This document shows positions 9,349 through 22,488 of a stretch of DNA of 64,000 nt, one piece after another (position 1 is the stretch's first letter; each line of letters opens with the position of its first letter). Origin of the DNA: Planctomycetota bacterium. Lineage in GTDB: Bacteria; Planctomycetota; Planctomycetia; Pirellulales; Lacipirellulaceae. The translations under genes were made by a program, and so were the position numbers. The notes below the pieces were generated by a model, which saw only the letters and a program-made list of their open reading frames with translations, searched no databases and was not told the DNA's origin. Location of the stretch: assembly GCA_029259915.1 (NCBI GenBank), contig JAJDED010000038.1, positions 1 through 64,000 of the forward strand, given 5' to 3'.

Positions 9349-11112
<1,764 letters not shown>

Positions 11113-12360
11113 GTGTCGGATCAGTCGGCCAAACTGGTGGAACTTAATCACAATCAAAACGGAAACCAGCACCGCAATGGAAACGGTTCGGCATCAGCAC
11201 CGTCTGTAGGTTTAGACGTCGAGCAAGCCGTGCGCGAGCGATACGGCGCCGCGGCCCAAGCGGCCGAGGCGGCCCTCTGCTGTCCTGTGGATTACGATCC
11301 CCAATATCTGAAAATCATTCCCGACGAAATCATCGAACGCGATTACGGTTGCGGCGACCCCTCGAAATACGTTCGCCCGGGCGAAACCGTACTCGACCTC
11401 GGCAGCGGCGGCGGAAAAATTTGTTACATCGCCGCGCAGATTGTTGGTGCCCAAGGCCACGTGATCGGCGTCGACCGCAACGACGACATGCTCGCCCTAG
11501 CACGCAAATACCAGCCGACCATTGCCGACGAACTGGGCTACGACATCACCGACTTCCGCAAAGGAAGCATCCAAGATCTGGCCCTCGACCTCGAAGAGTT
11601 CGAAACCTATCTGGCAGAAAATCCTGTGCAATCAAGCAGCGATTGGCTGCGGGCCGAAGCCCATGCCGACACGCTCCGCCAGACCAAGCCGCTGGTGAAA
11701 GACGATTCGGTCGACGTGGTGGTTTCCAACTGTGTTTTGAATCTTGTTTCGCAAGAGGACCGCCAACAATTGTTTTCGGAAATTTTCCGCGTGCTCAATC
11801 GGGGCGGCCGCGCAGTGATCAGCGACATCGTCTGCGACGAACCGGTCCCCGAACATCTGCAAGCCGACCCCCGACTCTGGAGCGGCTGTATTAGCGGGGC
11901 ATTTGGCGAAGAAGAATTCCTGCAAGCGTTTGCCGACGCAGGGTTCTACGGCATCACAATCGTCAGCCGTCAAAGCGAAGCTTGGGCCACAGTCGAAGGC
12001 ATCGAATTTCGCAGCATGACCGTCAGCGCTTACAAAGGGAAAGAAGGCGATTGTCTCGATCAACATCAAGCGGTTGTCTACAACGGCCCCTGGGCGCAAG
12101 TGAAAGACGACGACGGGCACACACTGTATCGCGGTCGACGAATGGCCGTCTGCGGAAAGACTTTTGATATCTATTCGCGAGAGCCGTACGCCTCGCACAT
12201 CACCCCCGTGCCACCCAGCAACCCGGTGCCGCTGGCCGACGCACAAGAGTACGACTGCCACCGCAACGCAGAGCGTCCTCCCCGCGTGACCAAAGGCCAA
12301 GATTACGACGCCACCCAACTTCCCGAAGACGACTGCTGCGGCAACAACGGCTGCTGCTGA
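11113..12360 (+). CDS. ArsM-like methyltransferase with Cys-rich C-terminus
   Basis: The 415-residue SAM-dependent methyltransferase resembles arsenite methyltransferases. It has a CCPVDY cysteine pair near residue 57, the SAM loop VLDLGSGGGKICY (about 103-115), VVVSNCVLNLV and LWSGCISGAF. The last two resemble the ArsM segments carrying the second and third arsenic-binding cysteines. It differs from typical ArsM by a Gln/Asn-rich N-terminal tail, an insertion rich in acidic residues (about 165-195), a C-terminal domain of about 120 residues and a final CCGNNGCC. GTG 11113 is the start, with AAGGAG 6 bp upstream. The substrate may be arsenic or another thiophilic metalloid. Confidence 0.75.
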   Translation: MSDQSAKLVELNHNQNGNQHRNGNGSASAPSVGLDVEQAVRERYGAAAQAAEAALCCPVDYDPQYLKIIPDEIIERDYGCGDPSKYVRPGETVLDLGSGGGKICYIAAQIVGAQGHVIGVDRNDDMLALARKYQPTIADELGYDITDFRKGSIQDLALDLEEFETYLAENPVQSSSDWLRAEAHADTLRQTKPLVKDDSVDVVVSNCVLNLVSQEDRQQLFSEIFRVLNRGGRAVISDIVCDEPVPEHLQADPRLWSGCISGAFGEEEFLQAFADAGFYGITIVSRQSEAWATVEGIEFRSMTVSAYKGKEGDCLDQHQAVVYNGPWAQVKDDDGHTLYRGRRMAVCGKTFDIYSREPYASHITPVPPSNPVPLADAQEYDCHRNAERPPRVTKGQDYDATQLPEDDCCGNNGCC

Positions 12361-13365: not shown

Positions 13366-16300
13366 TTACGACCGTGCCAGCTTTTTGCCTGCGAGTTGCT
13401 CGCCGACGCAGGCCAACCATTCATCCGTCGGGCGGCCGTAAGGGCGGAACTTTTGTTGGGTCCCCAGGTCGTCGCGGTAAAGAATTGCCCGATGCTCGCC
13501 CAAGCGTCCCGCCGCGGGGGAATCAATGAGACTCGTCGAATCACCCGGGCTCATCTGTAAGGCCACGCGGTATTCCATTTCTTTTAAGGTGCGCCGATCA
13601 ATCGAACGCATGAGATTGTTATATGAATCGCACCAAACGAGCACATGCACACCCGCGGCAGGCCCTTCGCGAAGTAGTTCGCGAAACTGCACGTCGACTG
13701 CCGGCGGTTTGCCGTTGGTGCTGTTTTGCGACGTAAAACTAAAATCGTCTTCGCTCAATCGCAAATTGCGGAATTGGGCCAGATCGTGAATCACCACATA
13801 ATGCGGAGCGAATTGCCCGTCGGCAGGCTCCATGCGTCGGGCCACTTCCGCCGAAAGCTGACCAATCGCCTCAGCCACGCCTGAGGGCGACACACACCTC
13901 GCTTCGCCCGGCAAGATGTCGACAACCTGCTGCCAACAACCGTGCTGCGAAGATTCGGTGCGTGTGCCATCCAGCACCGTCACCTGTAGGCCATGACTGC
14001 CCTGCTGCGCAGCCAACGCCAGCACCGAGGTTGCAAGAATCCCCAGCGCGAGCGGTTCGTCCTGTCCAACAACCAAAAGATTTTGCCCCGCCTGACGACG
14101 AAGCATCACATGCGTGGGCGGCTCGATGCGCACTGCCGAGCCAAGCCACAACGTCGGTTCGGCAATCTCCGGAGGCCCACTGTCGGCCAGAGCGCTGACG
14201 AGCGCGGAGTTTTCGCTAGGATTCGCCGGCACATTGCCCTCGAACACAATCGGCGGCGGACTGGCGATTTCAAGCGACTCCGCCCGAGACCGAAGCTTCG
14301 ACAAAATCTCCTGCCGCTGCTCGTCGGGCAACCACACCACTTGGAACAAACTGTTTCCATCAGTCATTCCATTCTGATCGTTGTAAATCGCCTCGCCTGG
14401 TCGGTTCAGCAACCGGGCGGCCATGTTGTCGTCGCTCAGAATCAGATGCGCGTCGGTCTCGCTACATTCCAGCGCAATCCGCACCGCCATTTGCCCCAGC
14501 GTGCTACGCGCGAGCGAATATGCCCCCGCCAACGTCTGCGAACCCAACAGCACGTGAATCCCAAACGCGCGCCCTTGCCGCACCAATCGATCGAGCAACA
14601 GCGCAGCATCCTGAGCAAGTTTGTCATCATTAACAAACAGCTCTTGAAATTCGTCGACCATCAGCAACACACGCGGCATAGGCGCGTCGGACTCCGCACG
14701 GAATCCCGCCAAATCTTGCACGCCCAATTCCCGAAACTTCTCTCCCCGCCGACGCAGCTCTTCGTCGAGACGCTGCAATACGCTGACGCCAAACTCGCGC
14801 TCGCTCTCAATCGCGATCACCCGCGCGTGGGGTAGTTGCCCCGTGGCGTAGGCCTTGAATTCCACACCCTTTTTGAAATCGACCAGATAAAACTCCAATT
14901 CGCGAGGACTGTAGTGTAGTGCCAGATTGGTCACCAGCGCGTGGAGCAACGTCGACTTTCCCGAGCCGGTCTTTCCAGAAATCAGTACGTGTTGCGACGT
15001 CCCACGACCCAGACGAAGCGACTGCAATTCGTTCGCCCCCGCCCGACCCATCGCCACCACCAACTCGTGGGCCGTACTGCCGGTCCAAATGGCATCATCT
15101 TCCGGAGCCACCACATCAAAGGGAACTTCCACCCGGCTCGCCTCACGTGATTCAATCGCCACCTTTTGCAAAAGATCGGTGAGCCGCTCTTTCGGCGGCA
15201 GCGGGTCGAGCTCCAAACGCAATTTTTCGTACAGCGGATAATTCCACCGCATCGCATCTTGGGCCCACTCGAGATGCACCGCATCGGCAAACAGCTCATC
15301 CAGCGGATGCTCGCCGGGAAGCTTTATTCCTGAGTCAATGCTCATCAACAAATAAACTCCGCACTTGGGACCCGCGGTGGCGATCGTCATCAGCTTACGA
15401 ATTGCCGCATCGCTCAAACCTGACGGAAAATTCGCAATCACCAACACATGATACGGCTCGGCCACTTCGCCGGCGTGTTGATTGTACTCGTGGAGATTTT
15501 CGAACTGGTTGCGCAGATACTTTTGCAGCACCTTTTCCATGTGGTCGGACAGAAGCAAAAGCCGCTCGTCGATTTGTCGGGAGTCGGTCAAGATACGTCC
15601 GCCGACCAGTTGCTCATCAAAATCAGCCAAGTGCATGAACGAAGCAAAATTTTCGCCCAAGCCCGCCGGGTCGATAATCGTGAACCGCAATTTCCCCGCT
15701 GGCATAGCCGTGAGAAACCGCACCATCATCGACTGCAGCACACCCACCGCCGCAACCCGCCCTGCCCCCGCCGCCGAAATCACCAGCCTGGGCTGCTCCG
15801 CAAAATTCATCAGCGCCGGCAACTCAAGCTCCGTTTGTGCAGGAACCAATCGCTCGTCTTGCGATATCCCATGCTTTACCGCCTGCAATTGCAAGCGGTA
15901 GGTCCCAAATTGCATCGCTTCGGGCGGCTCCGCGGGCCGTTGCCAATCGCTCCACTCGGTCGACGACCAATCGGGAAACATTTCTGAGCAAATGGCACGC
16001 ATCGTAGACAGCTCGTCCGCAATTGTGGAAAACGAACGATGCCAACTGTCGGCCATGTTCTGCCACGCCGTTTCGGCTTGCTCTTTGGCTGCGCTGGTTC
16101 GCACTTCTTGCTGTGCGTGAATCGCGTGACTTCGATCCCTGCGTTGCTGGGCCAATTGATCCAACGACGGCGGGAATGTCTTGTCTGCTTCCGCCACCAC
16201 CGCCTGACAAATGCTGGCAGCCTGCTGCAATCCCGACGCATGCCTCGCTTCGGCTTGCGTCCGTTCATCCGCAACAAGGGTTTCCAATTCCGTCAAGGCT

Positions 16301-17277
16301 GCGGTGCGATTCCTCTCGGCCTCGGCCAACTCGTGATTGCGCTGCGAATGAATCGCTTCCGACTGTTGAACACAGAGGGCTTCCGCTTGCTCGCGTGCAG
16401 CCTGTTCCTCGCGCCGCGCATGGTCGAGCCAGTTGGTTATCTCCGCAAATTGGGCGAGCGATTGCTGCCGCGCTTTGCCACCAAAAAACCCATAGAAAAG
16501 CGCCGCCAGTGCTCCGCCAATTGCCAAACCAATCACCGGCAACCACCACGTCGCGCCAATCATCCCCACCGCAAGAGTACCCGACAACAGGCTGGCTCCC
16601 AACCACCAGCCAACCCAACGCCAGCCTTCCAACATCATGGCCGGCAGCCGCTGCGATTGCAGTGCCAACACTGCACGATGGGCTTCGGTGATGCACGTTT
16701 GCAATCGCTCTTCCGAAGAGGCACCGTACGCATCTTGGCCACCCTGAAATTGCACTGCCACTTCCCCCGGGCCGCTCGGCGACAATCGGCGCATCGCCAG
16801 CAGAGTATTCGCATCACGCTGCAAACCATCGATTTGAGCCTGGCGAGCCTGCAAACGTTGGATCGCTGCCGCATGTTTCTGCCCCGGAACATCCTTGGCC
16901 GCGTCGAACACCGCCAGCGCCTGCCATTCGCATTCCTTCTTCTTCCGCTCAATCGCCAACACCGACTGCTTATACTGCTTATCGATCTGCTGCTGCGCTT
17001 TGTCGAGTTGGGCCTGGTGCTCTTGCTCCGTCGCACGCTGCTGCTCTCGGGCTGCGTGTTTTGTCTCGGCATACTGGTTTTCACAATCGCGACGTTGCTG
17101 GCCACTTTCCTTGACCAACCGCTCTGTCGAAGCGTGAAACTCGTTTTCTGCTGCCGTCAACTCCGCCTCGCGCGTCGTGCTGATGCGCAGCTCCTGCTCG
17201 GCGCGCTCATCGGCCGCCTGCTGCAATAGCTGCATCAGTTCCAATTGACGTCGTGTTGAGAGTTGGGATGGTATCAC
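13366..17277 (-). CDS. FtsK/SpoIIIE-type ATPase, EssC-like (type VII-like secretion)
   Basis: The 1303-residue membrane ATPase has these parts in order: an N-terminal Gln/Glu/Ala-rich coiled coil (about 5-140), two membrane segments (about 217-272), a second coiled coil (about 275-400), and three ATPase-like modules. The first and third modules are degenerate (RLVISAAGAGRVAAVG; NLLVVGQDEPLALGIL). The second, around 740-940, has Walker A ISGKTGSGKST (about 766-776), Walker B VLLMVDEF (about 873-880), LVDFKKGVEF, and a late HVLLGSQTL. EssC/EccC ATPases that export WXG100 proteins have two membrane segments followed by three such modules; here coiled coils replace the FHA domains of EssC. The GTG start is 17 bp after the small W-x-D gene. 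A general DNA translocase role is the alternative, but the WXG100-like neighbour argues for secretion. Confidence 0.85.
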   Translation of the reverse strand: MIPSQLSTRRQLELMQLLQQAADERAEQELRISTTREAELTAAENEFHASTERLVKESGQQRRDCENQYAETKHAAREQQRATEQEHQAQLDKAQQQIDKQYKQSVLAIERKKKECEWQALAVFDAAKDVPGQKHAAAIQRLQARQAQIDGLQRDANTLLAMRRLSPSGPGEVAVQFQGGQDAYGASSEERLQTCITEAHRAVLALQSQRLPAMMLEGWRWVGWWLGASLLSGTLAVGMIGATWWLPVIGLAIGGALAALFYGFFGGKARQQSLAQFAEITNWLDHARREEQAAREQAEALCVQQSEAIHSQRNHELAEAERNRTAALTELETLVADERTQAEARHASGLQQAASICQAVVAEADKTFPPSLDQLAQQRRDRSHAIHAQQEVRTSAAKEQAETAWQNMADSWHRSFSTIADELSTMRAICSEMFPDWSSTEWSDWQRPAEPPEAMQFGTYRLQLQAVKHGISQDERLVPAQTELELPALMNFAEQPRLVISAAGAGRVAAVGVLQSMMVRFLTAMPAGKLRFTIIDPAGLGENFASFMHLADFDEQLVGGRILTDSRQIDERLLLLSDHMEKVLQKYLRNQFENLHEYNQHAGEVAEPYHVLVIANFPSGLSDAAIRKLMTIATAGPKCGVYLLMSIDSGIKLPGEHPLDELFADAVHLEWAQDAMRWNYPLYEKLRLELDPLPPKERLTDLLQKVAIESREASRVEVPFDVVAPEDDAIWTGSTAHELVVAMGRAGANELQSLRLGRGTSQHVLISGKTGSGKSTLLHALVTNLALHYSPRELEFYLVDFKKGVEFKAYATGQLPHARVIAIESEREFGVSVLQRLDEELRRRGEKFRELGVQDLAGFRAESDAPMPRVLLMVDEFQELFVNDDKLAQDAALLLDRLVRQGRAFGIHVLLGSQTLAGAYSLARSTLGQMAVRIALECSETDAHLILSDDNMAARLLNRPGEAIYNDQNGMTDGNSLFQVVWLPDEQRQEILSKLRSRAESLEIASPPPIVFEGNVPANPSENSALVSALADSGPPEIAEPTLWLGSAVRIEPPTHVMLRRQAGQNLLVVGQDEPLALGILATSVLALAAQQGSHGLQVTVLDGTRTESSQHGCWQQVVDILPGEARCVSPSGVAEAIGQLSAEVARRMEPADGQFAPHYVVIHDLAQFRNLRLSEDDFSFTSQNSTNGKPPAVDVQFRELLREGPAAGVHVLVWCDSYNNLMRSIDRRTLKEMEYRVALQMSPGDSTSLIDSPAAGRLGEHRAILYRDDLGTQQKFRPYGRPTDEWLACVGEQLAGKKLARS

Positions 17278-17294
17278 AATAGGCTAATTAACCT

Positions 17295-17519
17295 TCAGTT
17301 CTCACAATCACGCCGCACCTGATTGACCAAATGTTGCATTTGTTCCACCGCGTCGAGCGCCTTTTTCAAAGCGGGTCCGATAGGTTCCAAGTGGTTTTCA
17401 CAAAACTTTTCGCTTACACTGTCTTGCCATTGCTCGCCCGTCTGTTGCCAGGCGATTTGCAAATCGTCGAACGAGTCCCGCAGTTGCGCCGCGCCCGTAT
17501 CCAGATCCCAAAGTCGCAT
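17295..17519 (-). CDS. Short WXG100-like helical-hairpin protein
   Basis: This 74-residue, all-helical protein has the centre EQWQDSVSEKFCENHLEPI: a Trp-x-Asp turn followed by Ser and Phe as in WXG100 proteins, flanked by helices of about 30 residues. The same W-x-D-x3-E-K-F pattern occurs in the first gene of the locus. GGAG lies before ATG and only 3 bp separate it from the stop of the coiled-coil gene, so translation is likely coupled. It is probably a secreted substrate or chaperone partner of the FtsK-like ATPase. Confidence 0.7.
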   Translation of the reverse strand: MRLWDLDTGAAQLRDSFDDLQIAWQQTGEQWQDSVSEKFCENHLEPIGPALKKALDAVEQMQHLVNQVRRDCEN

Positions 17520-17522
17520 GAT

Positions 17523-18065
17523 TTACGGTTCTCCTTCGCTTTGGTGAGCTGGAGGAATGACACGACTCTCCGGCGATGCCGGAGGGCCCTCGATTTGGTA
17601 CGCATCCAACCGACTGACAATCTGCCTCAGCCTCGCGCGTGCCGTCGGCAACTCGGTTTCCAATATTCTTTTCAAATGGCTCACACGGCCTGTGTACTCA
17701 AACATTTCATGATGAAGCTGCCGCTTCCAATGTTTCAGCCGTTCGCTTTTCTCCCGGCAGGTAGCCAATCTTGCCTGAACTTTTTTAAGATTCGCGCGCT
17801 GCTCCCGGCAAGCCGGCCGTTCGCCCGCAACCGGGGTCATCAAGCACCGCTCCAATTCGAGTTTCGCATCGTGAACCGCCTGCTCCGCCAGACGGATTTG
17901 CTTTTTCCAATACGCGGGCCGATCGTGCTCGACCCATTCCACCGCACGCTGTAGCTCCGCCTGCAACATCTCGACCGCGTCCCGAGCCCGCTGCTCAAAA
18001 AGCGCCAGCGCACCCCGAAAACTTTCAATCGCGTCGGTCGAACGAACTTGCGCAGAATCGGTCAT
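17523..18065 (-). CDS. Coiled-coil protein of the WXG100/FtsK locus
   Basis: The 180-residue protein is almost entirely charged heptad-like helix from about residue 12 to 160 (ALFEQRARDAVEMLQAELQRAVEWVEHD..., RANLKKVQARLATCREKSERLKHWKRQLHHEMFEY). It ends in a Pro-rich tail (EGPPASPESRVIPPAHQ). No signal peptide or enzyme motif is present. The position between two WXG100-like genes and the ATPase suggests a structural or chaperone role. The internal ATG at 18065 is preferred over TTG 18074. Confidence 0.75.
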   Translation of the reverse strand: MTDSAQVRSTDAIESFRGALALFEQRARDAVEMLQAELQRAVEWVEHDRPAYWKKQIRLAEQAVHDAKLELERCLMTPVAGERPACREQRANLKKVQARLATCREKSERLKHWKRQLHHEMFEYTGRVSHLKRILETELPTARARLRQIVSRLDAYQIEGPPASPESRVIPPAHQSEGEP

Positions 18066-18083
18066 TTTCTTCAATATGTATTT

Positions 18084-18112
18084 CTTGGCGCTCTTGGCGT
18101 CCTTGGCGGTTT
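18084..18112. repeat. Single arm of CTTGGCGCTCTTGGCG repeat
   Basis: CTTGGCGCTCTTGGCGTCCTTGGCGG lies between the first and second genes of the WXG100/FtsK locus. The same arm is found at 11040, 42130-42246 and 44589-44740. Confidence 0.7.
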
Positions 18113-18131
18113 ATTCTTCTTGTTTGAACTC

Positions 18132-18404
18132 TTATTTCTGTTGCAGATATTCCTCGATCCGCTCCGCTTTGCGCAGCAAAAACGGCGAGTATTGGTTCGA
18201 TGCCTCGATCGAACGAGCGATCAGTTTCATGTGATGCTCAAACTCTTCAACAAACTTCTCGTGTTCCTGATCCCGCCAGGTGCTGTTGAGATTATGCAAC
18301 TGGCTGGCAAGCGTGGAAAGACGCTCTTCGAGTTCGACGTTGAATTTGCTCACCAGGTGTGCAAAACGCCTGAGCTCGGCCGGATCGACGATTGCCTGTG
18401 ACAT
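18132..18404 (-). CDS. WXG100 family protein (ESAT-6-like)
   Basis: The 90-residue protein has the WXG100 layout: a first helix (PAELRRFAHLVSKFNVELEERLSTLASQLHNL), a turn carrying the Trp motif as STWRDQEHEKF, and a second helix (VEEFEHHMKLIARSIEASNQYSPFLLRKAERIEEYLQ). Gly of WxG is Asp here. WXG100 proteins are small dimeric helical hairpins exported by type VII systems through EccC/EssC ATPases. AAGGGG lies 7 bp before ATG 18404. It is the promoter-proximal gene of a four-gene minus-strand locus that ends in an EssC-like ATPase. Confidence 0.82.
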   Translation of the reverse strand: MSQAIVDPAELRRFAHLVSKFNVELEERLSTLASQLHNLNSTWRDQEHEKFVEEFEHHMKLIARSIEASNQYSPFLLRKAERIEEYLQQK

Positions 18405-18752: not shown

Positions 18753-21700
18753 TCAGTGCAATGGCGAGGCAGCACTCGTCCTCGTCTTGGCCAACGCCGC
18801 AATTTGTTTCCTGCGAGCAAAGTTCGGATCGATCGTAGAAAGTTCCTCAGCCACGGCGGCGATGGTCGTGCGAATCTGCTCTTCGGAATGCGTACTGGTG
18901 ATGAAAAATCTCAGCCGAGCCGCACTCTCTTCAACCGCAGGATAGAGAATCGGCTGGACGTTGATGTTCCGCTCGTACAACGCATGCGAGAGCCGTAAAG
19001 CATTGGCCGAATTGCCGGTGATGATTGGCACCACGGGAGTGTTATTGCTAAGGCCAGTATCAAGCCCCGCCTCTTTTGCCAACCGCAAGAAAAGACGCGA
19101 GTTGCTGGCCAGTTTGGCAACCCGATCAGGCTCCTCTTGCAACAAGTTGATCGCGGCAAGCGCCGCTGCTGTGTTCGGAGGACTCAAACCCACACTGTAA
19201 ACAAATCCCGGAGCCGTGTACTTGAGATACTCCACCAACTCCGACGAACCGGCAATGTACCCGCCGCAGCTACCAAACGATTTGCTTAACGTGCCCATCC
19301 AGAGATCGACATCGCGCGGATTCAAATCGAAATGTTCGCTCATCCCCCGGCCATGCAAGCCCATCGTGCCGATCGAATGCGCTTCGTCGACCATCATAAA
19401 CGCTTTATGCTTCTTTTTGATTGTGACAAATCTCGGCAGCTCCGGATAATCGCCGTCCATGCTGTAAACGCCCTCGACCACAATCAACACCCGACGGTAC
19501 TCGTGGCGCACTTCATCGAGGATCTCTTCACAGACTTTCCAGTTGTTATGGGGAAACGACCGGCGACGGGCGCCGGAAAGTATCGCTCCTTGCAAAATAC
19601 TGTTGTGCGACAGTGCGTCGTGCAAAATCAAATCGCCCGGGCCGAACAGATGGCCAATGGTGCTCTCGTTTGTCGAATGCCCACCCACAAAAACAATCGC
19701 ATCTTCGGTACCAATGAAATCGGCAATCGTCCGTTCGAGTTCAACGTGAATGGTCTTCTGCCCTGAGACAAGCCGGCTGGCAGAAACACTCGTACCAAAC
19801 CTTGCCACCGCATCCCGAGCCGCTTCGATCACGATCGGATCTCCAGACATTCCCAGGTAGTTGTAGCTGCAGAAATTGATGTATTCCTGCCCACCGATTT
19901 GTGCCCGATCGTTCGTTATTCCCTCATGCACGTTGAAAAATGGCAAACTGAGTCCCGTTTGCTCAGCAATCCGCTTATTCTCTTGCAATCGTAAGTAGTC
20001 AGCCCCCTTGGCAAAGATGTAATCTTCTTCAGGGACAATGTAGCTGCTGGGGCGTTTAGCCCGCTGCTTGATTTCTCCGCCCAGATACTTCTCGATCGCT
20101 TCGACCACTTCGCCGCAGGTTTCCATCGTCGGCAACACATGCTCGGGAAAACGCCCATTAAAGGATTCTTCCAACGCGGCGATGATCTCGATGCGCTCCA
20201 GCGAGTCGAGTCCCAACGTGACGATGTTGGTATCCCATTTCAACTGACCGACGCGTTCGCGGCCAATTTCCCTGACTTTTTCGTAAACCACTTCGGCAAT
20301 TTTATTCGTACGGTCTGATCGGGCCGCTTCAGTTCGGGCCGCTGCTGTCGGCTCCGATGGATGTTCAGCGGAAACCGCAATGCCGTTGGCCTCTTCGGGG
20401 GCAGGGATATCTTCTGCGGAAGGCCCGAAAGCGGAAATAAGATCGCCCTCTTCTACCCAGTGCGTAGCGTCGGCCTTATCCCGGCGTCGACGAGCAGACG
20501 GTGCCACCTCGACCCGACCCGTCTCCGCCGACCAGGAGGCCAACATCGGCAACGTGCCGGCAAGATAGCCATCGTGGCAGGCATGACGTTGGATCTTTCC
20601 GCTCGAAGTTTTCGGGATGCTGCGAAACTTGATCAACACAATCGCGGCCACCGACAGATCGTGCTCGCCTGCCACTTTTTGCCGGATGGCATCGATAATC
20701 TCCGCGAAATCTAGCTGACGCAGCCGGGCTGCCTCTTGCACGATCACCAACTTTTCGTCCCCTTGCTCGCCAACGACAATCGCCGCACTGGCTCCCTGGT
20801 GAACATGCTCGTGTGCCGCGCGAACCGTCTCTTCGATGTCTTGCGGATAGTGATTCACTCCGCGAAGAATGATGAGGTCTTTAAGCCGCCCGGTGACGAA
20901 CAATTCGCCCTCGCGCAGAAATCCGAGATCGCCGGTACGCAAAAAGGGACCGCGCCCATCTTTCAGCCGAGCCTGAAAAGTCTGCCGGGACATCTCGTCC
21001 CGCTTCCAATAACCCCGGGCAACGCTGGGGCCGGAAACCCAGATTTCGCCAACGCGGTTTTCTTCAAACGGTTCAAAAGTTTCAGGATCGGCAATCACAA
21101 TTTGCTGATCGAGCAGATTGCCGCCGCTGCCGACTAGCTCGCGACTGTCTTCGGTGGCCCCGGATATCGAGGGAATCGCCTGATTGTTCTCAAGCCCTTC
21201 AACCTCAAACCGCTCGACCCTGGGAGGCGACTGTTTGTATCCCCCCGTGACAATCAGCGTCGCCTCGGCTAAACCAAAACAAGGATAAAACGCATCGCGC
21301 TGAAATCCACATTCGGCAAAGGCTTCGCTAAATCGGTTGATCGTGTCGGCCCGCACCGGCTCCGCACCGTTGAAGGCGAGTGTCCAGCGGCTCAGATCGA
21401 GCGTCTTTTTCTGCTCGGCGGTGACTTTTTCTACACACAAATCGTAGGCAAAATTCGGCCCGCCGCTAATCGTCGCTCCCGATTGCGACATAATCTGCAG
21501 CCAACGCACCGGCTTCTGCAGAAAATGGGTAGGAGAAAACAGCGTGTTCGGTTTGCCCATGTACAACGGCTGCAAAACACCGCCGATCAAACCCATGTCG
21601 TGGTACAACGGCAGCCAGAAACAACCGCTTCCCGAACGCGTATGCTCAAACGCATAGGAAATCATCGCCGAGTTGTGCATCAGGTTCGCATGCGAAAGCA

Positions 21701-22265
21701 TCACACCCTTGGGTGTGCCCGTCGAACCCGAAGTGTATTGCAAAAAGGCCAGCGTATCGCCATGCACGTCGGGACGCTGCCAATGGTCGGCGAGTGCTTC
21801 GTCCCATTGATCGGTAGCCCGCCAGCGCATTTGCTGCAAAGCCGGCGTATCCCCGATCATCGTTTGCACCCGTTCCAACACATCAAACGTTGTCAGCGCA
21901 ATTTTCGCCTCGGCATCGTCGGCAATCGCGTCGATTCGGGCCATGTTCCGATTGCGCCGCGGAGGATAGGCCGGCACAGCCGTCACACCCGCATAGAGAC
22001 AGCCAAAAAAGGCCGCCACAAAGTCCAGGCCCGAAGGATAGAGCAACAGCGCCCGCTCGCCCTCAAGGTCCATCGTCTGGAGAGACGCGGCAATCGCTCG
22101 CGCTTTGCGGTCCAAGTCGGCATACGTCCATTCAATGGATTGACGCTCGCCGTCGACCAGATAACGCAGCCCCATGTCGTCGCCCTGGTGCAACGCGCGA
22201 TGCTGCAACAATTCGATCAGATTCGAGGGACCAAAAAATGAACCGGGGAGGTGATCAAGATGCAC
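18753..22265 (-). CDS. Fatty-acyl-AMP ligase / acyl carrier / alpha-oxoamine synthase fusion
   Basis: The 1170-residue protein has three parts. Residues 1-590 form a fatty-acyl-AMP ligase with YTSGSTGTPKGVMLSH (about 173), a WLPLYHDMGLIGG segment and a late TGRLKDLIILRG motif. A carrier domain follows near 650-725, with the phosphopantetheine Ser in GLDSLERIE (about 687). A PLP enzyme of the 8-amino-7-oxononanoate/serine palmitoyltransferase group makes up about 780-1160, with CSYNYLGMSG, VFVGGHSTNEST, MVDEAHSIGTMG and the PLP Lys in GTLSKSFGSCGGY (about 992). Expected chemistry: activate a free fatty acid, load the carrier, and condense it with an amino acid to a 3-keto amine. GTG 22265 is preferred because AGGA precedes it. 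Confidence 0.9.
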   Translation of the reverse strand: MHLDHLPGSFFGPSNLIELLQHRALHQGDDMGLRYLVDGERQSIEWTYADLDRKARAIAASLQTMDLEGERALLLYPSGLDFVAAFFGCLYAGVTAVPAYPPRRNRNMARIDAIADDAEAKIALTTFDVLERVQTMIGDTPALQQMRWRATDQWDEALADHWQRPDVHGDTLAFLQYTSGSTGTPKGVMLSHANLMHNSAMISYAFEHTRSGSGCFWLPLYHDMGLIGGVLQPLYMGKPNTLFSPTHFLQKPVRWLQIMSQSGATISGGPNFAYDLCVEKVTAEQKKTLDLSRWTLAFNGAEPVRADTINRFSEAFAECGFQRDAFYPCFGLAEATLIVTGGYKQSPPRVERFEVEGLENNQAIPSISGATEDSRELVGSGGNLLDQQIVIADPETFEPFEENRVGEIWVSGPSVARGYWKRDEMSRQTFQARLKDGRGPFLRTGDLGFLREGELFVTGRLKDLIILRGVNHYPQDIEETVRAAHEHVHQGASAAIVVGEQGDEKLVIVQEAARLRQLDFAEIIDAIRQKVAGEHDLSVAAIVLIKFRSIPKTSSGKIQRHACHDGYLAGTLPMLASWSAETGRVEVAPSARRRRDKADATHWVEEGDLISAFGPSAEDIPAPEEANGIAVSAEHPSEPTAAARTEAARSDRTNKIAEVVYEKVREIGRERVGQLKWDTNIVTLGLDSLERIEIIAALEESFNGRFPEHVLPTMETCGEVVEAIEKYLGGEIKQRAKRPSSYIVPEEDYIFAKGADYLRLQENKRIAEQTGLSLPFFNVHEGITNDRAQIGGQEYINFCSYNYLGMSGDPIVIEAARDAVARFGTSVSASRLVSGQKTIHVELERTIADFIGTEDAIVFVGGHSTNESTIGHLFGPGDLILHDALSHNSILQGAILSGARRRSFPHNNWKVCEEILDEVRHEYRRVLIVVEGVYSMDGDYPELPRFVTIKKKHKAFMMVDEAHSIGTMGLHGRGMSEHFDLNPRDVDLWMGTLSKSFGSCGGYIAGSSELVEYLKYTAPGFVYSVGLSPPNTAAALAAINLLQEEPDRVAKLASNSRLFLRLAKEAGLDTGLSNNTPVVPIITGNSANALRLSHALYERNINVQPILYPAVEESAARLRFFITSTHSEEQIRTTIAAVAEELSTIDPNFARRKQIAALAKTRTSAASPLH

Positions 22266-22488
22266 GGTTGGCTTTTTCCTGGTGGGTAAACAGTAACGAC
22301 TGACGCGGGCCAAATTGGAAATGAACGAGAACCGCTTTCAAAATGCGTTTGTAGCCCGCAGTGGGAAATGAATTTTGAAATCGGTTCTATGCACTTCAGC
22401 ATTCAGCTAATTCGTCATTCGTCGTTCAAGACACAACTGCGGACTTTAAGAATCGGGCACTGCCGATAATCCTAGGTGGGAAGTCTAT

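Follow-up and report, generated by a model that had tools for sequence, protein, structure and literature searches.

The subject of this study is a four-gene operon (positions 13366–18404, minus strand) of a planctomycete bacterium of the family Lacipirellulaceae, order Pirellulales (assembly GCA_029259915.1, contig JAJDED010000038.1). Positions 1 to 64,000 of this contig were analysed as one stretch of DNA, hereafter the window. The operon encodes a WXG100-like helical-hairpin protein (WXG), a coiled-coil protein (CC), a short W-x-D hairpin protein (WxD) and an FtsK/SpoIIIE-type ATPase. An earlier reading of the letters (the original prediction) had claimed these four tandem genes in this order, and the operon is confirmed by the coordinates of its open reading frames, with gaps between successive genes of 66, 3 and 17 bp. 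The reading we favour, which we hold with about even confidence, is that the operon is a chromosomal and apparently toxin-less version of a module made of a WXG100 protein, an EssC-like ATPase and a coiled-coil protein, which would carry out type VII-like translocation in a housekeeping role. The four-gene set has the appearance of a kit for toxin export that has become a permanent component of the cell. This kind of module has already been described beside CoCoNuT systems, as given in the consulted part of PMC11090510. What is new here is a chromosomal version with a predicted membrane anchor and without a recognised toxin, which is spread over the phylum and is co-retained when its genes are scattered.

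Conservation and co-inheritance of the four genes

The window was compared with 40 relatives, giving 41 loci (loci and genomes are denoted below by L and G numbers). The results showed that all four genes are present in 37 of the 41 loci in the same order as in the window, indicating that the four-gene locus is not a product of chance. Co-conserved genes across Pirellulales had been proposed as a check on the original prediction; in the 41 loci only these four genes are kept together across the order, and the next cluster, an acyl-AMP ligase, is found in 21 loci. Neighbouring genes were therefore rejected as extra parts of the system.

Genome-wide searches covered the ATPase, WXG and CC. Among 147 genomes of the order, 131 matched the ATPase at an E-value of 1e-10; 27 genomes, whose best match lay between 8.4e-11 and 3.8e-16, were read by E-value as carrying other FtsK-type proteins and were set aside. 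Strong ATPase matches, some of them only fragments, were found in 104 of the 147 genomes, WXG in 102 and CC in exactly these 102, and the ATPase together with both in 100 (Fisher p 3e-29, related genomes not being independent). The exceptions are G003, G020, G077 and G146, which have the ATPase only, and G098 and G107, in which it is absent. In a sample of 392 genomes from the phylum, the ATPase (at 1e-30) was found in 67, CC in 65, WXG in 65 and all three in 64. Here G229 lacks CC, G465 lacks WXG and G344 has the ATPase only; no genome of this sample has WXG or CC without the ATPase.

Copy number was scored from up to 27 WXG and 21 CC candidates per genome in the order sample, and from 2 ATPase, 8 CC and 10 WXG candidates in the phylum sample. 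CC gave a single match in 101 of the 102 positive genomes of the order and two in G013, which has two sets. In the phylum sample WXG and CC gave a single match per positive genome, and the ATPase was found twice in G216; the other double ATPase matches inspected are pieces of one gene or lie on two contigs. The genome of the window itself has one match to Pfam WXG100; several WXG100 genes are expected in a multi-effector system.

Gene linkage was examined in the 14 ATPase-positive genomes of the phylum sample that are listed with at most 10 contigs. The genes lie together in nine (G025, G198, G229, which is without CC, G302, G400, G457, G471, G479 and G498) and are split in five, with all three far apart in G168, G243 and G446 and the ATPase away from WXG and CC in G287 and G412. 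Likewise, in G141 and G144 of the order sample the ATPase and WxD do not share a contig with WXG and CC. Retention of the set without an operon is the strongest sign that its parts work together.

Profiles were then used on 121 planctomycete loci, in which some genomes appear twice and 19 have less than 2 kb before the ATPase. On the same strand and within 8 kb, WXG was found in 92, CC in 95 and WxD in 101 of them. The ATPase stands alone in 12 loci, most with room for the other genes; in G049, other contigs carry WXG and CC, and the ATPase (L034) adjoins a giant gene that by eye is polyketide-synthase-like. Other variants of the locus were also seen. A gene judged by eye to be metallophosphoesterase-like lies between WXG and CC in L065 (6249–6740), L066 (6532–7017) and L070 (9478–9963). 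A gene for a 509-amino-acid (aa) protein precedes WxD and the ATPase in L046 (11824–13353) and L047 (12184–13713), whose genomes have WXG and CC on other contigs; the L046 protein matches HEAT below the threshold (22.9 bits, cut-off 27.7).

The ratio of nonsynonymous to synonymous substitution (dN/dS) was at most 0.22 wherever it could be computed across all four genes, several pairs being saturated at synonymous sites. For WXG it was 0.012 and 0.025 in two pairs, the third being saturated. All four genes are therefore under purifying selection in the pairs computed, with WXG most strongly so.

The encoded proteins and the motor-domain tree

The WXG protein matches Pfam WXG100 with 35.4 bits (cut-off 27.3) and NCBIfam TIGR03930 with 29.4 bits, below the cut-off of 44.85. 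The other 23 aligned proteins of this family are 49–83% identical to that of the window, and in all 24 the motif is an invariant W-R-D. The assignment to the WXG100 type in the original prediction is thus upheld by Pfam, but not by the motif, which is not W-x-G. WxD matches Pfam WXG100 below the cut-off (15.1 bits) and the WXG family weakly in profile comparison (probability 65%, E 6e-5), and W31 and D33 are invariant in 26 of 26 aligned proteins. The operon is accordingly taken to encode two small proteins of WXG100 type, one by Pfam and the other, below the cut-off, by its invariant W-x-D and its position.

The AlphaFold2 model of CC has a mean pLDDT (predicted local distance difference test) of 87.2, and Pfam found no nuclease domain in the CC protein of the window. 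The tails of CC, most of them judged by eye, are mostly short or of low complexity (median 11 aa in 95 loci). Six loci (L142, L176, L179, L180, L231 and L243) have long, similar C-terminal tails; the two that were scanned are Imm33-like (L180, 33.9 bits; L176, 50.8 bits; cut-off 27), and the other four are alike by eye. In such long-tailed proteins the carrier would be joined to a domain of immunity type. Two cysteines at the tip of the hairpin had been considered as a possible disulfide and a hint of export; the pair is present in only 58 of 95 loci and was dropped.

The ATPase matches Pfam FtsK_SpoIIIE with 109 bits, best over residues 737–916. In its three-domain region exactly one Walker A motif was found in 35 of 35 homologues, in the middle domain (residue 768 in the window), and the Walker B DE of the window protein is at residues 875–876. 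The surroundings DFKKGVEF, RLVRQGR and RPGEAIYN of the middle domain are near-invariant, and a model of this domain (D2) matches motor domain 3 weakly (16 bits, residues 1192–1281). One intact and two degenerate FtsK-type modules, as originally predicted, are hence borne out. One or two segments with hydropathy above 1.6 are found at about residues 200–370 in 34 of 35 homologues and none in L040. With this segment, three tandem motor domains and a WXG100 protein, the EssC/EccC-like layout of the original prediction is present.

The best sequence matches in PDB are 4nh0 (5e-34), deposited as cell division FtsK/SpoIIIE and which we take to be an EccC, ESX-5 EccC5 (4e-28) and an FtsK translocase (3e-10). 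NCBIfam EccCa, EssC and EccCb gave 108.6, 104.3 and 90.9 bits, all well under their cut-offs of 509, 778 and 347.

The motor domains were then placed in a tree. A first tree with two long-branch rows gave a support of 63/70 for the module; it was rebuilt without both and with Helicobacter added. In the rebuilt tree the module domains form a clade of 16 rows (support 100/99), apart from FtsK-like and from the sampled EccC and EssC domains and including five plasmid cassettes from four other phyla. The FtsK-like clade has 12 rows (100/99) and takes in the sampled planctomycete FtsK-like proteins. Grouping of the ATPase with DNA translocases was the outcome against which the original prediction had been set; the two form separate clades in both trees, though in the rebuilt one the clade closest to that of the module is the FtsK-like one (85/91). 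The D2 model gave 148–267 bits for four plasmid relatives, at most 93 for EccC/EssC domains and at most 94 for FtsK-like proteins; the last value is that of Rothia, whose FtsK-type row groups with EssC D1 in the tree, and planctomycete FtsK-like proteins reach at most 79 bits. FtsK-like proteins of planctomycetes and Sinorhizobium (L203 and L209–L211), three of the four longer than 1,700 aa, make up a separate group (100/99) beside FtsK.

Table 1. Genes of the operon and features of the ATPase, with positions in the window
Feature	Position	Strand	Basis or detail
WXG100-like helical-hairpin protein, 90 aa	18132..18404	-	Pfam WXG100; motif W43-R44-D45
Coiled-coil protein, 180 aa	17523..18065	-	AlphaFold2: long helices at 11-76 and 87-159; tail of low confidence
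Short W-x-D hairpin protein, 74 aa	17295..17519	-	W31 and D33 invariant
Membrane-type FtsK/SpoIIIE ATPase, 1303 aa, GTG start	13366..17277	-	Pfam, NCBIfam and PDB matches
ATPase hydrophobic segment, about residues 234-267, predicted membrane anchor	16477..16578	-	Hydropathy
ATPase motor domain 1, about residues 455-700, degenerate, without Walker A	15178..15915	-	Boundaries inferred
ATPase motor domain 2, residues 735-987, intact, Walker A 768-775, Walker B DE 875-876	14317..15075	-	
ATPase motor domain 3, about residues 1040-1290, degenerate, without Walker A	13408..14160	-	Boundaries inferred

Two neighbouring genes of the window were assigned by eye. Upstream of the operon (18753–22313, minus strand) a gene for a 1186-aa protein looks like a fusion of a fatty acyl-AMP ligase, an acyl carrier protein and an enzyme of the 8-amino-7-oxononanoate synthase/serine palmitoyltransferase type; the cluster of this gene is the one present in 21 of the 41 loci. 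On the plus strand (11083–12360) lies a gene whose product resembles an arsenite methyltransferase with a cysteine-rich C-terminus.

Plasmid relatives and known type VII systems

A scan of genome contigs gave at least 587 relatives (at least 595 stretches), the best 80 of which were used. These best 80 are all labelled as planctomycetes or only as 'bacterium' (L129, L130), and other phyla are therefore known here only from five plasmid records. The window ATPase matched 367 plasmid records, and among the matches listed one was long, that of Rhodococcus sp. AH-ZY2. A search with the AH-ZY2 protein added R. pseudokoreensis, Caballeronia, Deinococcus and Helicobacter, and a third search returned the same five records.

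The gene content of the five loci was as follows. In Rhodococcus AH-ZY2 the ATPase is fused to TerD (69.1 bits) and is followed by a coiled-coil protein extended at its C-terminus, a 73-aa W-x-D protein and an 87-aa WXG-type protein, the locus adjoining TerD and DUF475 genes. The R. pseudokoreensis locus has Hsp70, TPR, GrpE, the ATPase and small helical proteins. Caballeronia sp. SBC2 has vWA, WXG100, a 436-aa protein, two small genes, the ATPase, a CARF-PDDEXK nuclease, vWA, PP2C and a kinase. In Deinococcus actinosclerus the ATPase lies between a small protein whose C-terminus has a hydrophobic segment and small helical proteins. Helicobacter sp. NHP19-012 has WXG, a 340-aa protein with a C-terminal nuclease in the CC slot, a SUKH-1 protein, a 77-aa protein and the ATPase. 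The 340-aa protein matches WHH with 44.6 bits (cut-off 25.1), with colicin-DNase also above its cut-off, and the product of the next gene matches SUKH-1 with 29.1 bits (cut-off 25.4). A nuclease paired with a SUKH immunity protein has the look of polymorphic toxins with their immunity. Homology of WXG to that of the window family was found for Caballeronia (E 2e-21), Helicobacter (E 7e-12), Rhodococcus AH-ZY2 (4e-8) and Deinococcus (2e-5).

According to the consulted part of PMC11090510, the module occurs in extended Type III-A CoCoNuT systems and comprises two WXG100 proteins, a coiled coil fused to a nuclease and an EssC-like ATPase, in which only D2 is predicted to be active and which has a long N-terminal coiled coil and no membrane segment. 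The same text describes EssC with D1 and D2, whereas only the middle domain is intact here, and cites a 2012 study for a stand-alone operon of the module. As far as that text goes, the planctomycete set is alike in its EssC-like ATPase, with an N-terminal coiled coil and only the central domain predicted to be active, and in its two WXG100-type proteins and coiled-coil protein. It differs in that the hydrophobic segment is present (34 of 35 homologues), no nuclease was found on CC, and the genes are chromosomal and spread over a phylum, with no such defence genes conserved alongside.

Type VII secretion systems (T7SS) of the b type (EssC, EsxA, EsaA, EsaB, EssA and EssB) and of the a type (EccB to EccE) share with the operon three tandem FtsK-type domains, a membrane ATPase and a WXG100 protein, and with one plasmid relative of the module a toxin–immunity pair. 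Unlike them, the operon has a motor of another clade with one intact, middle domain, a W-x-D motif, no EssB or EssA found in 59 genomes and no Yxxx[DE] motif. Among these 59 related genomes EssB was over its cut-off in none, with one weak match in G050 (17.3 bits, cut-off 27.4); three control genomes matched, one of them over the cut-off. EssA was likewise over its cut-off in none of the 59, and the B. subtilis control matched. EccB gave 0 of 59 over the cut-off, with no control genome matching either. YukD was over its cut-off in eight of the 59 genomes, not including that of the window, and five of the eight loci were inspected and adjoin ThiF/E1-like frames (by eye) and not an ATPase. These five (L183–L187), where the YukD-like genes stand beside ThiF/E1-like and zinc-ribbon or E2-like frames (E1 and E2 by eye), resemble a ubiquitin-like conjugation cluster and not a T7SS. 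The absence of further T7SS membrane parts, as originally predicted, therefore holds for EssB and EssA, with YukD not beside an ATPase in the five loci inspected; EsaA, EccD, EccE and MycP were not searched.

The T7SSc to T7SSj variants of Gram-positive bacteria, as far as the consulted part of PMC11217815 describes them, come from Bacillota and Actinomycetota and were found by an EssC search; like the present set, they have an ATPase and WXG100 as a common core with other parts variable. The same part places the ubiquitin-like TsxB in all new variants except T7SSd. FtsK/SpoIIIE DNA translocases share the motor fold family and Walker motifs with the ATPase, but belong to a separate clade. In the part consulted of a 2014 survey, WXG100 proteins were almost only from Actinobacteria and Firmicutes, with a few in Chloroflexi (PMC3935865), and among the open-licence PubMed Central papers listed none was, by title and abstract, on WXG100 or type VII secretion in planctomycetes.

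Proposed mechanism, alternatives and significance

A possible though less than even reading of the origin and working of the operon is that a toxin-export cassette shed its toxin, acquired or retained a membrane anchor and turned into a minimal four-protein WXG-type translocation machine of diderm planctomycetes, which would work without any other T7SS membrane protein and be conserved across at least two classes. That EssB and EssA were not found and that similar compact kits exist in other phyla suggests that no other T7SS part is needed. The ATPase may form a ring at the inner membrane, with the two hairpin proteins as putative adaptor or chaperone for CC, and ATP turnover by D2 would move the CC complex across or into the membrane, in the way that a T7SS moves WXG100 and LXG proteins. 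For the plasmid relatives a toxin would be the cargo. The planctomycete CC proteins, some of which have an Imm33-like tail, carry no recognised toxin domain, and what the machine of Planctomycetota delivers is probably the CC complex itself, which would be a component of the envelope or a structural one.

Several observations weigh against the favoured reading. R. pseudokoreensis matches the module profiles by its ATPase alone. Homology of CC across phyla is supported for Rhodococcus AH-ZY2 only (E 3e-3; E 3e-5, probability 72%), and profile comparison gave no match for Caballeronia (probability 7%) or Helicobacter (probability 0.5%), so that the link of planctomycete CC to the nuclease carriers rests mainly on gene slot and partners. 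WxD matches weakly in Deinococcus (E 3e-3) and had no match by profile comparison in Rhodococcus AH-ZY2, Caballeronia or Helicobacter. Pfam found no domain in the carriers of Caballeronia, R. pseudokoreensis and Rhodococcus AH-ZY2; a toxin payload is thus read by eye in these three and is supported in Helicobacter only. The ATPases of the proteobacterial plasmids show no clear membrane segment (hydropathy peak 1.59 in Caballeronia, a borderline 1.71 in Helicobacter), which makes them ill-suited to a simple membrane exporter. The Yxxx[DE] motif was not found in the last 30 residues of WXG (0 of 24 rows), WxD (0 of 26) or CC (0 of 29), and no strong ATPase match was found in 43 of the 147 order genomes or 325 of the 392 phylum genomes. 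The putative export has no known outer-membrane part, and the direction of change may run either way, with the toxin lost or never present.

A non-secretory role is possible in view of relatives in Ter, CARF and Hsp70 neighbourhoods and of the proteobacterial ATPases just mentioned. In its fuller form, which we regard as unlikely but as the strongest of the alternatives, the operon is an intracellular module for conflict or stress, domesticated and secreting nothing, with an ATPase ring and helical partners acting on the nucleoid or as a scaffold. This may be so for relatives in Ter, TerY-P, CARF and CoCoNuT neighbourhoods: the AH-ZY2 ATPase is fused to TerD beside TerD genes, and that of Caballeronia, without a clear membrane segment as is (borderline) that of Helicobacter, adjoins the CARF-PDDEXK nuclease, vWA, PP2C and kinase genes. 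However, the hydrophobic segment is conserved in the planctomycete ATPase, no further gene is common across the order in the 41 loci, and a SUKH immunity gene suits delivered toxins, though not exclusively. PADLOC returned only motor-type matches (SspH, mad8, HerA and mad3) and weak LeoBC and PtuB1; the module itself is not modelled there.

A DNA translocase or cell-division factor of lineages with unusual division, in which an FtsK-like pump is held in place or controlled by the helical proteins, appears more doubtful still. The nearness of the FtsK-like clade (85/91) and the wide spread over the phylum agree with it, whereas the separate 100/99 clade of the sampled planctomycete FtsK-like proteins, the degeneration of two of three motor domains and the close partnership with WXG-type proteins do not. 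Least probable, and by a long way improbable, is the version of the original prediction in which a reduced T7SSa or T7SSb has its other membrane parts unlinked in the genome. The EssC/EccC-like layout and the best NCBIfam matches (EccCa, EssC and EccCb, far below cut-offs) fit it, but EssB and EssA were over cut-off in none of 59 genomes with matching controls, YukD is not in the window's own genome and stands beside E1-like frames in the five of its eight loci that were inspected, and the motor forms a separate clade with only its middle domain intact, with compact cassettes in other phyla. A reduced known T7SS is thus not borne out, and the earlier T7-like secretion interpretation is partly supported.

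Work on the function of T7SS has usually dealt with large membrane complexes. For the planctomycete Planctopirus limnophila, deletion mutants have been reported (PMC10632474). A unit of four genes co-retained over the phylum, even when scattered, would make a minimal WXG-driven translocation core testable in a harmless diderm bacterium and, if the favoured reading is true, would illustrate the path from a mobile toxin cassette to a part of the cell.

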